Shown piece by piece: positions 10,487 to 48,650 of a stretch of DNA of 64,000 bases. Position numbers and translations under genes: made by a program. A model generated the notes under the pieces. The model was not told the origin of the DNA. It ran no database searches and was given only the letters and a program-made list of their open reading frames with translations. The DNA is taken from NCBI RefSeq assembly GCF_005503555.1, contig NZ_SCNG01000002.1:682001-746000 (forward strand), in the 5' to 3' direction. This DNA comes from Rudaea sp. 3F27F6 (GTDB lineage: Bacteria; Pseudomonadota; Gammaproteobacteria; Xanthomonadales; Rhodanobacteraceae). How positions within the stretch are numbered: position 1 is the first letter of the stretch; each line of letters starts with the position of its first letter.

Positions 10487-11170
10487 ATGTCAGGCAAGTC
10501 GAAGATCATCTCGTTCTGCACGCTCGCGCTCGGCCTGCTGCTCACCCTTGCCGCGGCCCCAGACGCCGGCGCACGCGGCAAAGGGCAGCGCGGCGGCGAA
10601 ACCAAGCCTGGCCGCTTCGACTATTACGTGGTCTCGCTGTCTTGGTCGCCGAGCTATTGCGCCGTGCATCCCGGCGAATCGCAGCAGTGCGGCAAGGGCT
10701 ACGGCTTCGTCCTGCACGGCCTGTGGCCGCAGTACCGCAAGGGCGGCTGGCCGGAAAATTGTTCGACCAGCCGCGAGCCCGACGATGCAGTGATCACCCA
10801 GATGCTGCCGATGATGCCGAGCCGCGGCCTGATCGAACACGAATGGAAAACCCACGGCTCCTGCTCCGGCCTCGACCCCAAAGGCTATTTCGCCCTCGCC
10901 GAAGACGCGTTCTCGCGCGTGACGATCCCACAGGCGCTGAAGACCCCGGCGACCTCGCCCTCGCTGTCCGCCGTCGAGATCGAACAGGCCTTCATGGACG
11001 TCAACCCGGGCCTCGAAGACAACATGATCAGCGTCGAATGCAAGAACGGCGGCACCCTCGAAGAAGTGCGCATCTGCGTCGACAAGGACAATCTCTCGGT
11101 GAAGTCCTGCGGGGGGCGCGTGCGCAATTCTTGCCGGGTTGGGAAGTTGACGATACCGGCGGTGCGCTGA
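10487..11170 (+). CDS. exported ribonuclease T2
   Basis: A 227-residue secreted or periplasmic endoribonuclease that cleaves RNA through 2',3'-cyclic phosphate. AAGGAG lies six bases before the ATG at 10487. Residues 1-29 form a signal peptide (FCTLALGLLLTLAAAPDAGA). Both active-site blocks are visible: CAS I GFVLHGLWPQY (about 78-88) and CAS II IEHEWKTHGSC (about 124-134), each with its catalytic histidine. Several cysteines are placed for disulfides. It is divergent from the SET gene and is followed by the long repeat region rather than a simple terminator. Confidence 0.93.
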   Translation: MSGKSKIISFCTLALGLLLTLAAAPDAGARGKGQRGGETKPGRFDYYVVSLSWSPSYCAVHPGESQQCGKGYGFVLHGLWPQYRKGGWPENCSTSREPDDAVITQMLPMMPSRGLIEHEWKTHGSCSGLDPKGYFALAEDAFSRVTIPQALKTPATSPSLSAVEIEQAFMDVNPGLEDNMISVECKNGGTLEEVRICVDKDNLSVKSCGGRVRNSCRVGKLTIPAVR

Positions 11171-11185
11171 TCTTGCCCTTGCTCG

Positions 11186-11954
11186 TCATTCCCGCATGCT
11201 CTTAGCGGGAATCCAGTGACTTTGCTTTTGTTTGTTATTGGTTTCAGAGCAAAGGCTTCCACTCGTCCTTTGGACGAGCGGGTCACTTTCTTGTCTCCAG
11301 CGACAAGAAAGTAACCAAAGAAACGCCGCCCCGGGAGCCGCGCCCTTCGCGCTGCGCGCTACGGGTACGCAAGGTCATGCCGGGGTTCGCTCGATGGACA
11401 TCCGTGTCCATTCGCGAACTCGCGCGCATCCTGCGCGCGACCCTAACGGGCGAATCCGTCATGCCCTCGCCGCGGCTGACGGGGACCCGAGATCAAGAGA
11501 CGGATCAAGAGCATCGAGCGAAGCAGAGCCGAGCGCGAAAGGTTTGATCGCTTTAGCACGATGCGCACGAAAGTCGCGCCCATGAATGCGGAGTGCCTGC
11601 TTCTTGCTTTGGTTTCGGCGCGCACGATGCGCGCTGCTCCGGCTTCTCCGGGTCCCCATTACATTGCGGCGGCAGTGGACGAAAAGGCCCGCAGGGTGCG
11701 CGCGATGGATCGCGCGCATTCCGCTATTGCACACGGACGTGCAATTAGCGGAACCCGGCCGCTGACGCGGACCCTATGGGCAGGATGCCCATAGGGCGCA
11801 ATGTTCTGGGGCGTGTCTCTTTGCTTACTTTCTCTGCACGAGCAGAGAAAGTAAGACGCTCGTCCCCAGGACGAGTGGAAGCCTTTGCTCTTAACCAACA
11901 AAAGCAAAAGCAAAGTCACTGGATTCCCGCCAAAAAACACGCGGGAATGACGAG
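11186..11954. repeat. composite structured repeat with inverted ends
   Basis: The gene-free stretch 11171-12033 between RNase T2 and transaldolase is nearly all repeat. Its ends are inverted: GTCATTCCCGC and GCGGGAATCCAGTGACTTTG on the left (11186-11226) mirror CAAAGTCACTGGATTCCCGC and GCGGGAATGAC on the right (about 11911-11952). Inside are two partial copies of one hairpin-chain element in opposite orientation: a plus-oriented copy (11618-11889) and a minus-oriented fragment (11245-11330). The middle (11330-11610) is GC-rich, with short inverted repeats such as around 11392-11416. No coding frame in it is convincing. Confidence 0.75.
11618..11889 (+). repeat. hairpin-chain dispersed repeat, copy 1
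   Basis: Six consecutive stems can be drawn: 11618-11634 (GCGCGCA/TGCGCGC), 11698-11717 (GCGCGCGAT/ATCGCGCGC), 11719-11753 (TTCCGCTA with TTGCAC inside, paired to GTGCAA and TAGCGGAA), 11772-11796 (CCCTATGGGC/GCCCATAGGG), 11824-11855 (14-bp perfect stem around ACGA), and 11859-11875 (CTCGTCC/GGACGAG). The same order occurs at 48382-48650 with compensating differences in several stems, which argues that folding is conserved. It may act as an RNA or as a DNA structure. Transcript status is unknown. Confidence 0.8.
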
Positions 11955-11971
11955 CAAAAAAGCAAAAGCTA

Positions 11972-11996
11972 GGTTCCGGCTTCCGCCGGAATGACG
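11972..11996. repeat. REP-like GTCATTCC palindrome
   Basis: A short palindrome (TTCCGGCTTCCGCCGGAATGAC) directly downstream of the composite repeat and just beyond the end of the transaldolase gene. It belongs to the same REP-like family as those at 27830-27855, 43097-43187 and 56348-56374. It could end transcription of the transaldolase gene, but no T-run follows on that strand. Confidence 0.6.
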
Positions 11997-12033
11997 AGCT
12001 AAAAGAAAGCCCAATCAAATCCAACCAACGAGA

Positions 12034-13113
12034 TCAGGCGGCCGCCAATTCGGCACTCTTCGTCGCTATACGCTGCATTAGCTCGTGCCATGAATCGACG
12101 AATGCCTTGGCGCCGTCGACCTGCAGCTTGAGCGCCAGGGCATCGACGTCGACGCCGGCCTTGGCGAACTGCGCGAGCAGTGCCTCGGCCTCGCTGCCGT
12201 CTTGGGCCATCGCCGAACCGACCTTGCCGTCCTTCGCGAATGCGAGCAGGGTCTTTTCCGGCATCGTATCGACAGTGTCGGGCGCGGCGAAGGCTTCGAT
12301 GTACAGGCTCGGCGAGAGCTTCGGATCTTTGGTGCCCGTGCTGGCCCAGAGCAGGCGCTGCGGATGTGCGCCCTGCGCGGCGAGTTTCTGCCAGCGCGGC
12401 GATGCGAGCAGATCGAGATAGGCGCGATAGGTGCGCCCACCGATGGCGATGCCGAGCTTGTTGTGCAACTCGGCCGGCACGTCGGCACCGAGCGAACGGT
12501 CCCAGCGGCTGATGAAGACCGAGGCCACCGATTCGACCACGGGATTGAGGCCGGCCGCGATGCGCCGTTCGATGCCGCGCAGATAGGCTTCCGCAGCGGC
12601 AAGGTACTGTTCGCGCGAGAACAGCAGGGTCACGTTGACCGGCACGCCGGCGTAGATCGCCTCTTCGATCGCCGGGATGCCTTCGGGCGTGCCCGGAATC
12701 TTGACGAACAGGTTGGGTCGCTGCGCGGCCGCGAAGATTTCCTCGGCCGCGGCGATCGTGCCGGCCGTATCGGCGGCGAGCAGCGGCGAAACTTCCATCG
12801 ACACCCAGCCGTCGACGCCGTTGGTGCGCTCGTGCACCGGCTTGAACAGATCAGCGGCGCGACGCAAGTCTTCGAGCGCAAGCTCGATGAACAGGGCCTC
12901 GCCCGATTTGCCGGCCTTGGCCTTCTCGCGCACGCTGGCGTCGTAGTAACCGCTGCCGATCGCCTCGTTGAAGATGGTCGGGTTCGAGGTCAGGCCGGTC
13001 ACCGACAACTCGTCGATGTAGCGCTGCAGCGTACCGTTGTCGAGGATTTCGCGCGTGATGTTGTCGAGCCAGAGGCTCTGGCCGAGGGCATGGAGTTGCT
13101 GGGTCGCTTTCAT
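12034..13113 (-). CDS. tal: transaldolase
   Basis: A 359-residue enzyme of the non-oxidative pentose phosphate pathway, moving a dihydroxyacetone unit between sedoheptulose-7-phosphate and glyceraldehyde-3-phosphate. Family blocks seen are GLTSNPTIFNEAI (40-52), and LFVKIPGTPEG (135-145), where Lys138 is the Schiff-base lysine, followed by VNVTLLFSREQY. The length and the GTKDPKLSP block match the longer TalA/TalB-independent subfamily found in actinobacteria, cyanobacteria and xanthomonads. The start MKATQQ was chosen since residues encoded upstream are not family-like. A cytosolic housekeeping gene without operon partners here. Confidence 0.95.
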   Translation of the reverse strand: MKATQQLHALGQSLWLDNITREILDNGTLQRYIDELSVTGLTSNPTIFNEAIGSGYYDASVREKAKAGKSGEALFIELALEDLRRAADLFKPVHERTNGVDGWVSMEVSPLLAADTAGTIAAAEEIFAAAQRPNLFVKIPGTPEGIPAIEEAIYAGVPVNVTLLFSREQYLAAAEAYLRGIERRIAAGLNPVVESVASVFISRWDRSLGADVPAELHNKLGIAIGGRTYRAYLDLLASPRWQKLAAQGAHPQRLLWASTGTKDPKLSPSLYIEAFAAPDTVDTMPEKTLLAFAKDGKVGSAMAQDGSEAEALLAQFAKAGVDVDALALKLQVDGAKAFVDSWHELMQRIATKSAELAAA

Positions 13114-23037: not shown

Positions 23038-23069
23038 CAAGGGCGCGATTTATCGCGCCCTTGTTTTTT
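23038..23069 (+). terminator. rho-independent terminator of sodB
   Basis: Stem CAAGGGCGCGA/TCGCGCCCTTG with TTTA-type loop at 23038-23063, followed by six T residues. The GGGCGCGATTTATCGCGCCC core resembles the hairpin at 48296-48315, so it may derive from a dispersed motif. Confidence 0.9.
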
Positions 23070-23203
23070 GTGCGGTCGGGCCGCGAAGCGCAACACGGAC
23101 GCAGTTGTCCCGGCGTTGCAACAGGCATTGTTAGCGTCTCCTGAAAGTTCCGCCGCGGATCGCCGCTACCATTCGCGCCAACTTCCGCGATACGGAGCAT
23201 CGC

Positions 23204-24589: not shown

Positions 24590-24715
24590 CACAAATACCC
24601 CGTTCGTGTTGAGCGTACCGAGGCTTCGCGAAGTCCAAATACCGCGGATTCCACGACTTGCGGCACTTCGACTCCGCGCCTTCGGCGCTACGCTCAGTGC
24701 GAACGGTTGTTTACG
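24590..24715. repeat. dispersed inverted repeat (type B), copy 1
   Basis: This fills most of the gap between the retropepsin-like gene and purK. It is the reverse complement of sequence at 36920-37070: shared blocks include CGTTCGCACTGAGCGTAGCG, GAAGTCGAAGTGCCGCAAG and the ACTTCGCGAAGC element. Each copy is itself an imperfect inverted repeat built on TGAGCGTAGC and ACTTCGCGAAG, and could form a long hairpin. Related TTCGAC...GCTCAG...GAACGG sequences are widespread in proteobacterial intergenic DNA. Confidence 0.75.
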
Positions 24716-36919: not shown

Positions 36920-37070
36920 GCCTGTACACAAATAGCCCGTTCGCAAATGCGTTCGCACTGAGCGTAGCGCCAAAGGCGCGAAGTCGAAGTGCCGCAAGCC
37001 GTGAAATCCCCCGTGTTTCGACTTCGCGAAGCAAAGCTTTGCTACGCTCAGAACGAACGATTTCTTATTT
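36920..37070. repeat. dispersed inverted repeat (type B), copy 2
   Basis: This occupies most of the 308-base gap between fecR and the receptor. The first half (GCGTTCGCACTGAGCGTAGC, then GCGAAGTCGAAGTGC) is mirrored by the second (GTTTCGACTTCGCGAAGCAA, then TTGCTACGCTCAGAACGAACG), so the strand can fold back on itself. It is the inverted counterpart of the copy at 24590-24715. Confidence 0.75.
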
Positions 37071-43065: not shown

Positions 43066-43096
43066 TGCGCGCAAAGCGGTAAAGAAGAAGCCACCG

Positions 43097-43187
43097 TCAT
43101 TCCGGCGAAAGCCGGAATCCAGTGCCTTTGTCCTTGTAGATACAAGCAACTGCAGAGACGCTGGATTCCGGCTTTCGCCGGAATGAC
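43097..43187. repeat. paired REP-like palindromes (GTCATTCCGGC)
   Basis: Two copies of the 27-base REP-like palindrome in opposite orientation (43097-43123 and 43161-43187) with a 37-base spacer, between the convergent MotB-like and Lrp genes. Each copy is internally palindromic (CCGGCGAAAGCCGG), and the pair can fold as one long hairpin. Confidence 0.8.
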
Positions 43188-43214
43188 GAGCTAATGAAGA
43201 CGATCGCTTACCCC

Positions 43215-48260: not shown

Positions 48261-48295
48261 CCGCGGCCGACCGAGTCTGCAAGAACAGAAAAGCC

Positions 48296-48315
48296 GGGCG
48301 CGATAAATCGCGCCC
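48296..48315. terminator. hairpin after the acid phosphatase gene
   Basis: Perfect stem GGGCGCGA/TCGCGCCC with a TAAA loop. It lacks a T-run, so termination strength is doubtful, and its sequence resembles the sodB terminator hairpin, suggesting a dispersed motif. Confidence 0.5.
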
Positions 48316-48381: not shown

Positions 48382-48650
48382 GCGCGCACGATGCGCGCCG
48401 CTCTGGCTTCTCCGGGTCCCTATTACATTGCGGCGGCAGCGGACGAAAAGGCCCGCAGGGTGCGCGCGAGGATCGCGCGCATTCCGCTATTGCGCACGGA
48501 TGTGCAATTAGCGGAACCCGGCCGCTGACGCGGACCCTTCGGGCAGAAGCCCAAAGGGCGCAATGTTCTGGGGCGGCGTTTCTTTGGTTACTTTCTTGTC
48601 GCTGCTGACAAGAAAGTGACCCGCTCGTCCGCAGGACGAGTGGAAGCCTT
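48382..48650 (+). repeat. hairpin-chain dispersed repeat, copy 2
   Basis: The same order of six stems as at 11618-11889. Differences that keep pairing include 48586-48621, a 15-bp stem ending TTGTC/GACAA where copy 1 has TCTGC/GCAGA, and 48535-48558, CCCTTCGGGC/GCCCAAAGGG where copy 1 has CCCTATGGGC/GCCCATAGGG. The gap 48261-48673 between the phosphatase and the methyltransferase contains nothing else except a hairpin and a Ctgcttc-rich lead-in (48335-48381). Confidence 0.8.

Follow-up and report, generated by a model that had tools for sequence, protein, structure and literature searches.

The best-studied antagonists of CsrA/RsmA are encoded at one or few loci. With regard to dispersed repeats, REP, BIME and REPIN elements are intergenic, palindromic and present in many copies, with REPs representing short simple hairpins, and in neisserial intergenic mosaic elements inverted repeats of the dRS3 type (ATTCCC-N8-GGGAAT) border repeat units. 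According to the accessible portion of PMC7652899, a CsrA-type site is an ANGGAN hexaloop, which is bound by RsmE, and CsrB carries CAGGA(U/A/C)G repeats; the same portion reports that SELEX ligands mostly contained four or fewer contiguous stem pairs and that very stable structure may disfavour CsrA. The accessible text of PMC7694677 states that no homologue of CsrB, CsrC or RsmV-Z is found in sequenced Xanthomonas genomes and describes RsmU (sRX061), a new find of its authors, as an RsmA-binding RNA of Xanthomonas that comes from a 3'-UTR and whose two isoforms carry four or three GGA motifs. As described there, RsmA binding and phenotype were largely retained when all four GGA motifs of RsmU were changed; GGA loops thus need not decide, which is a warning for the CsrA reading developed below. 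For the E. coli rrA/rrB/rrF sRNAs, the accessible part of PMC8144298 describes near-identical copies that arise from terminator read-through and interact with CsrA in vitro.

Here we describe a family of structured intergenic elements, apparently unnamed, to which the feature at 48382-48650 belongs; coordinates refer to the window, i.e., the whole stretch of 64,000 bp of Rudaea DNA that was analysed. A sequence-only reading of the window had proposed two copies of a hairpin chain, at 11618-11889 and 48382-48650, and one partial inverted copy at 11245-11330, sharing six ordered stems. Both copies were found in the window and could be aligned; the stem arms CTCTGC/GCAGAG versus CTTGTC/GACAAG and the outer change from C-G to G-C are as quoted, and the stem given as CCCTATGGGC/GCCCATAGGG versus CCCTTCGGGC/GCCCAAAGGG is also present, except that the 48382 copy has one broken C.A pair in the last stem. 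The inverted homologue is real but not partial, as 11245-11330 represents the tail of a complete arm on the minus strand (Table 1); this tail and that of the 48382 copy are 95% complementary, and the core of the arm matches our covariance model R1 with E 1.9e-14. The family also proved far larger than two copies and a part of a third. BLAST searches of the genome yielded 70 matches for the 48382 copy and 68 for the inverted arm at 11245. Sorted BLAST matches from the whole genome represent two homologous arm types, A (approximately 265 nt) and B (approximately 245 nt), with at least 34 A arms and at least 39 B arms at no fewer than 42 intergenic loci; copy numbers from the genome searches are lower bounds because only part of the candidates was scored. 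At 31 of these 42 loci a B and an A arm are arranged head to head, with tails outward, while three loci (including the 48382 copy) carry A alone and eight carry B alone. Paired arms are separated by 30-117 nt in 30 pairs and by 634 nt in one, and a simple codon-usage ORF caller placed no gene over any of the 42 loci, with 40 nt of overlap allowed. In the 11245-11889 element the 49 nt at the ends are 88% complementary and thus constitute terminal inverted repeats such as define MITEs.

Table 1. Coordinates of arms, loops and flanking palindromes in the window (R1, core model; R2, tail model).
Feature	Position	Strand	Remarks
A-type arm without partner	48382..48650	+	R1 178.8 bits; R2 80.5 bits; fold z -6.85; no B partner found
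Parts of the 48382 arm	5' hairpin; core 48416-48574; tail hairpins 48582-48644	+	
AGGAU loop of H5, 48382 copy	48469..48473	+	
ACGGAU hexaloop of H6, 48382 copy	48496..48501	+	
A-type arm of composite element	11618..11889	+	core 11652-11812; tail 11819-11879; R1 193.9 bits; R2 82.4 bits; fold z -9.27
AUGGAU hexaloop of H5, candidate CsrA/RsmA site	11705..11710	+	A(N)GGA at H5 in 63 of 69 family arms
ACGGAC hexaloop of H6, candidate CsrA/RsmA site	11733..11738	+	
AGGAU loop of H7, candidate CsrA/RsmA site	11782..11786	+	
B-type arm, head to head with 11618 A arm	11245..11500	-	core 11328-11486; tail 11258-11320; R1 81.5 bits; R2 77.9 bits; fold z -5.22
ACGGAU hexaloop of H6, B arm	11400..11405	-	
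AGGAU loop of H5, B arm	11428..11432	-	
Spacer between 5' ends of B and A arms	11501..11617	.	no sigma-70-like promoter found
REP-like palindrome GTCATTCCCGC..GCGGGAATCC outside B arm	11185..11214	+	
Inverted REP-like palindrome(s) outside A arm	11921..11995	-	

Other repeats were observed in the window as well. An inverted pair of similar REP-like palindromes with 22 nt between them lies at 43095-43188 and is possibly an empty counterpart of the composite element; an 83-nt inverted repeat (24623-24705 and 36950-37032) is 90% complementary, with its halves 12 kb apart and away from the arms; and a hairpin of the GGGCGCGATTTATCGCGCCC type is repeated at 23041-23071 and 48285-48315, the latter copy just upstream of the 48382 arm.

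In each arm, a multibranch core is succeeded by a tail made up of two hairpins. In the core of A arms, CCCC/GGGG forms the closing helix and CATTGCG/CGCAATG the inner helix; the latter bears hairpin H7, and a third helix encloses hairpins H4, H5 and H6. The tail of A arms consists of a T-rich/A-rich hairpin (GGTTACTTTCTT..) and of CTCGTCC..GGACGAG. B arms have the same layout, with the inner helices swapped for AGCCGCG/CGCGGCT and GCGAGG.CATG/CATG.CCTCGC. Nested closing helices, four core hairpins, two tail hairpins and, in A arms, a 5' hairpin amount to more than the six stems initially counted. This folding is not due to chance, as none of 200 shuffles was as good for any of the three arms in the window (z scores in Table 1). 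Discrete hairpin variants occur among the 34 A arms, i.e., two for H5, four for H7 and four for the first tail hairpin; the three common H7 types are each seen with both H5 types, and 12 H7-by-tail combinations are found, which suggests exchange or recombination between copies, with hairpins resembling exchangeable cassettes. The H7 variant GGAGCG (12 of 34 A arms) contains an internal loop of non-standard pairs, so its pairing is imperfect. Tail-only BLAST matches (query positions about 190-269) were also observed in several relatives, and the tail may be an older or separate unit.

A covariance model, as the sequence-only reading had proposed, was built and tested. Model R1 (161 positions, 51 pairs) was trained on 45 A cores of the genus, drawn from 58, and model R2 on 50 of 73 distinct tails; a further alignment comprised 55 of 113 cores, and a joint A and B alignment, which misaligns some B hairpins, was kept out of model building. 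Arms from relatives were included only if they matched more than 180 query positions, and three loci (L031, L033 and L034) were dropped as duplicates of others. The family set consisted of 40 loci that were hand-picked from the strongest R1 matches and represent 26 genomes in 11 genera, the window's own genus being one of them. R1 yielded 70 matches on these loci, i.e., 69 sense arms and one partial antisense match (25.7 bits), the latter being kept in the 70-row covariation score and left out of the tree null and of the loop, strand, G.U and context counts; an R2 tail match follows immediately downstream of 66 of the 69 sense cores. In the 70-row alignment 96.4% of cells are paired, a value that is somewhat inflated by the fitting of the alignment to the model. 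Double changes occur in 47 of the 51 pairs, and covariation scores 0.702, as compared to 0.175 in shuffles and at most 0.119 with slid partners. Against a tree-aware null (AliSim simulations on an IQ-TREE tree; 40 of 200 simulated alignments scored), 28 of the 51 pairs reach E<0.05, with 27 of those above every null score, and one unlisted pair (columns 24-133), placed to extend the third helix, also passes. Covariation hence exceeds that expected from phylogeny, as in a conserved structured RNA. These data support the initial claim that a folded RNA or DNA is under selection and undergoes compensatory changes, which had been made dependent on significant covariation among many copies. The accompanying statement that sequence changes while pairing is kept holds for the cells of the alignment as a whole and less well for one-sided changes; in six between-species comparisons of loci with a common flanking gene (MAFFT, element masked in flank matching), which depend less on the model, 57 of 63 double changes keep the pair, and one-sided changes keep a standard pair in only 16 of 48 cases, so pairs do break. 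Rfam 15 gave no match at gathering threshold across the whole window, and at 11150-12010 the four Rfam matches up to E 1 (best E 0.5) include no Csr/Rsm family.

With regard to strand, G.U pairs outnumber A.C in the paired cells of 58 A arms (210 to 22, with 131 other mismatches), 55 B arms (197 to 36, with 72 others) and the 69 family cores (54 to 14, with 110 others), part of the A-arm count being a fixed consensus G.U pair. The sense strand is more stable than the antisense strand in 33 of 34 A arms, 38 of 39 B arms and 65 of 69 family cores, as well as in 38 of 40 arms of a further set. DNA folding parameters also favour the sense strand (34/34 A arms, 39/39 B arms and 56/69 family cores); strand sense therefore names the strand and does not prove RNA. 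As A and B arms lie on opposite strands, each arm is read outward on its own sense strand.

Judged by sequence, the A(N)GGA of the core loops is the CsrA/RsmA recognition motif. It caps H5 in 63, H6 in 68 and H7 in 49 of the 69 family arms, as compared to none of 69 for H4, the neighbouring hairpin in the same core. In the H5 and H6 loops the A and GGA columns are 93-100% conserved, no single base exceeds 50% at N, and the stems take many pair types; CANGGANG is present in 64 of 69 family cores. Three or more A(N)GGA hairpins with a stem of at least 4 pairs are found on the sense strand of 61 of the 69 arms, with none on the antisense strand in 67, and 44 arms have a further A(N)GGA hairpin within 60 nt upstream. 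Since the training set of R1 contained GGA loops and the 40 loci belong to the best R1 matches, GGA is somewhat favoured in these counts; the GGA loops account for a small share of R1 scores near 100 bits. Within this genome, 25 of 34 A arms carry three A(N)GGA hairpins and 36 of 39 B arms carry two, the 5' hairpin is without GGA in 30 of 34 A arms, and in the 48382 copy neither the H7 loop (CAGAAG) nor the 5' hairpin loop (CACGATG) contains GGA. The arms make up 820 of the 64,000 bp of the window and contain all six of its A(N)GGA hairpins with a stem of at least 7 pairs, seven of eleven with at least 6 and seven of 14 with at least 5, whereas each of seven control loop patterns gave 1 to 8 hairpins with a stem of at least 6 pairs in the whole window. 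Arm hairpin stems are often 7 to 10 pairs long, i.e., longer than the SELEX stems. One match to csrA was found in this genome, and csrA was found in 143 of 147 family genomes; with csrA near universal in the family, its presence is permissive and discriminates little. One draft genome (87% complete) has the element, and csrA was not found in it (G138).

R1 matches occur in 96 of 147 genomes sampled in the family (22 of 26 genera), in 75 of 299 sampled in the order (26 of 85 genera) and in 11 of 229 sampled in the class, where the order and class samples include own or same-order genomes. Weak E-values (1e-4 to 1e-3, model E-values being rough) apply to three of the eleven class matches, and the 218 unmatched class genomes represent a specificity control. 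Outside the order, R1 matches (families labelled f135 to f138 and a few others) include full-length cores with GGA loops, and in several cases a tail match follows directly. The exact A-core pattern matches Rudaea cellulosilytica DSM 22992 and two metagenome-assembled genomes labelled Proteobacteria and Gammaproteobacteria; the NCBI taxonomy places Rudaea in the Rhodanobacteraceae, Lysobacterales. An adjacent -/+ head-to-head pair is present at 26 of the 40 family loci (exactly -/+ at 24 and contained in two more), and two of the 40 overlap a called gene. At the place corresponding to the 11245 locus, three relatives (G008, which belongs to the window's genus, G002 and G011) have a single arm that best matches B queries. 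In G002 and G011 the genes that flank the 48382 locus (PAP2 family and methyltransferase) are adjacent, with no arm detected, and reading this empty site by eye revealed no clear target-site duplication. The arm-less site in relatives and the arms common to several species indicate that loci were gained or lost and that some are old.

A transcript that reads an arm outward on its sense strand would form the closed multibranch core, which would present the A(N)GGA loops, followed by the two-hairpin tail, and these loops would be binding sites for homodimeric CsrA (RsmA). Owing to the head-to-head arrangement, a transcript from either direction would hold one sense arm, with two to four potential CsrA sites. 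No sigma-70-like promoter was found in the element, which makes passing transcripts, probably through read-through, the likely source of RNA; spacers of the family loci show no conservation and resemble promoters no more than shuffles do. The copies, which would have spread by some mobile or recombination process, might jointly titrate CsrA (i.e., act as a sponge) or singly mark host transcripts as CsrA-responsive UTRs. We thus infer, with a confidence somewhat above even, that the feature is an arm of a dispersed intergenic CsrA/RsmA-binding RNA cassette that is transcribed and serves as a sponge or as CsrA-responsive UTRs. More tentatively, and with greater doubt than belief, we propose that this repeat family has spread ready-made CsrA/RsmA-binding folds to tens of intergenic sites across the order, with paired arms working in either direction, so that a transposon-like element would provide a collective sponge or UTR wiring in lineages related to those in which no CsrB/RsmXYZ homologues were found.

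Several observations could also arise if the family were a selfish mobile element (MITE- or REPIN-like), of which only foldable copies multiply and whose GGA loops serve a mobilising enzyme or an exploited host factor, with no regulatory benefit. The presence of arms at 42 or more loci, the arm-less 48382 site in two relatives, the hairpin variants that assort in many combinations between copies and the inverted REP-like palindromes beyond both ends in 24 of 31 pairs all fit such an element, and there is a precedent, since the accessible portion of PMC11109978, which contains no mention of Xanthomon-, Lysobacter, CsrA or Rudaea, judges a single-stem motif that covaries and reaches dozens of copies per genome to be likely selfish. 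However, no transposase was found inside or tied to the element, the empty site lacks a clear target duplication, and some loci are common to several species, so that we consider a purely selfish origin rather unlikely, while still giving it more weight than the alternatives below. With regard to a RAYT link, the only gene for a Y1-type transposase (Y1_Tnp) found in the genome (contig C13:324627-324956) shows no GTCATTCCCGC palindromes in the portion of its flanks that was examined.

The preference of DNA parameters for the sense strand, together with the failure to find a sigma-70-like promoter and the inverted pairs, which would supply one sense arm per DNA strand, would also be consistent with a folded single-stranded DNA element that functions in replication, transfer or recombination and has its loops bound by an ssDNA-binding protein. 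This appears improbable given that the loops fit a known protein-RNA motif, that plasmid and phage collections searched with the A arm at E 1e-5 contained no match and, as a weak argument, since G.T is also tolerated in DNA hairpins, that G.U exceeds A.C. We see a similarly small chance that the arms are structured RNAs with another role (e.g., mRNA 3'-end protection, RNase processing or binding of another protein), the GGA loops being meant for a different ligand. The tail hairpins are conserved, yet their loops are without GGA in the aligned rows, and 16 of the 31 pairs in this genome lie between convergent and three between divergent genes (window gaps above 60 bp: 11 and 10 of 33), as might be expected for such a role; by contrast, the A-N-G-G-A loop pattern with a free N is specific, the family loci (eight convergent, nine divergent) have no convergent bias, and none of the four terminator-like sites at 11160-12040 (1.6 expected) lies on the sense strand of an arm at its outer end. 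A preference for convergent 3' ends as a general rule was thus rejected, and gene orientation supports the CsrA/RsmA cassette mechanism weakly.

If the CsrA/RsmA reading is correct, a multicopy, order-wide structured repeat with a CsrA motif would point to a further source of capacity for CsrA binding in Rudaea and related bacteria, and would exemplify a repeat family that was recruited, or is evolving, into the role of a protein sponge. Independently of CsrA, the arms constitute a structured family that is strongly supported, has a working covariance model and lacks a match in Rfam 15, and Rudaea cellulosilytica, as a named species that carries the element, can be used for tests. Mostly open-access literature, without preprints, on repeats, stem-loops and structured RNAs of Xanthomonadaceae/Xanthomonadales, on dRS3, on RsmA in Xanthomonas and on CsrA with repeats yielded no description of the element in the searches made, and literal tail sequences led to no paper on such an element as judged by title and start of abstract. 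In the Beggiatoaceae, TAACTGA intergenic repeats have been proposed to form a post-transcriptional network, according to the accessible part of PMC4679880, and may represent a parallel.

Like CsrB/CsrC and RsmX/Y/Z, for which the accessible text of PMC7652899 describes several GGA hairpin loops (ANGGAN or CAGGA(U/A/C)G) in one RNA, the arms combine multiple such loops, and family arms display two features of sequestering sRNAs, multiple GGA hairpin loops and a conserved loop on varying stems. They differ from these RNAs in their multibranch core, long covarying stems and two-hairpin tail, and in occurring as tens of intergenic copies, mostly inverted pairs, with no recognisable promoter and no Rfam gathering match. 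By analogy, the element would work like RNAs of the CsrB/RsmZ type; we do not class it as one, because no Csr/Rsm family of Rfam matches, because binding is a prediction and because no sigma-70-like promoter for a discrete transcript was found. RsmU, as described in the accessible text of PMC7694677, is processed from one mRNA and reported to be conserved only in Xanthomonas, and is by this description set apart from the multicopy arm family. With REP, BIME and REPIN elements the arms have in common that they are dispersed, intergenic and multicopy, and they differ in their multibranch fold of about 265 nt and an order-wide covariance model; the likeness to neisserial mosaic elements with dRS3 lies, by description, in the bordering inverted repeats, while the bordered unit here is a covarying RNA-like fold. 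Finally, the rrA/rrB/rrF sRNAs, in the accessible account, resemble the arms in having several near-identical copies, but these are three and located in rRNA operons, whereas the arms are dispersed between unrelated genes and share a fold that extends across the order.
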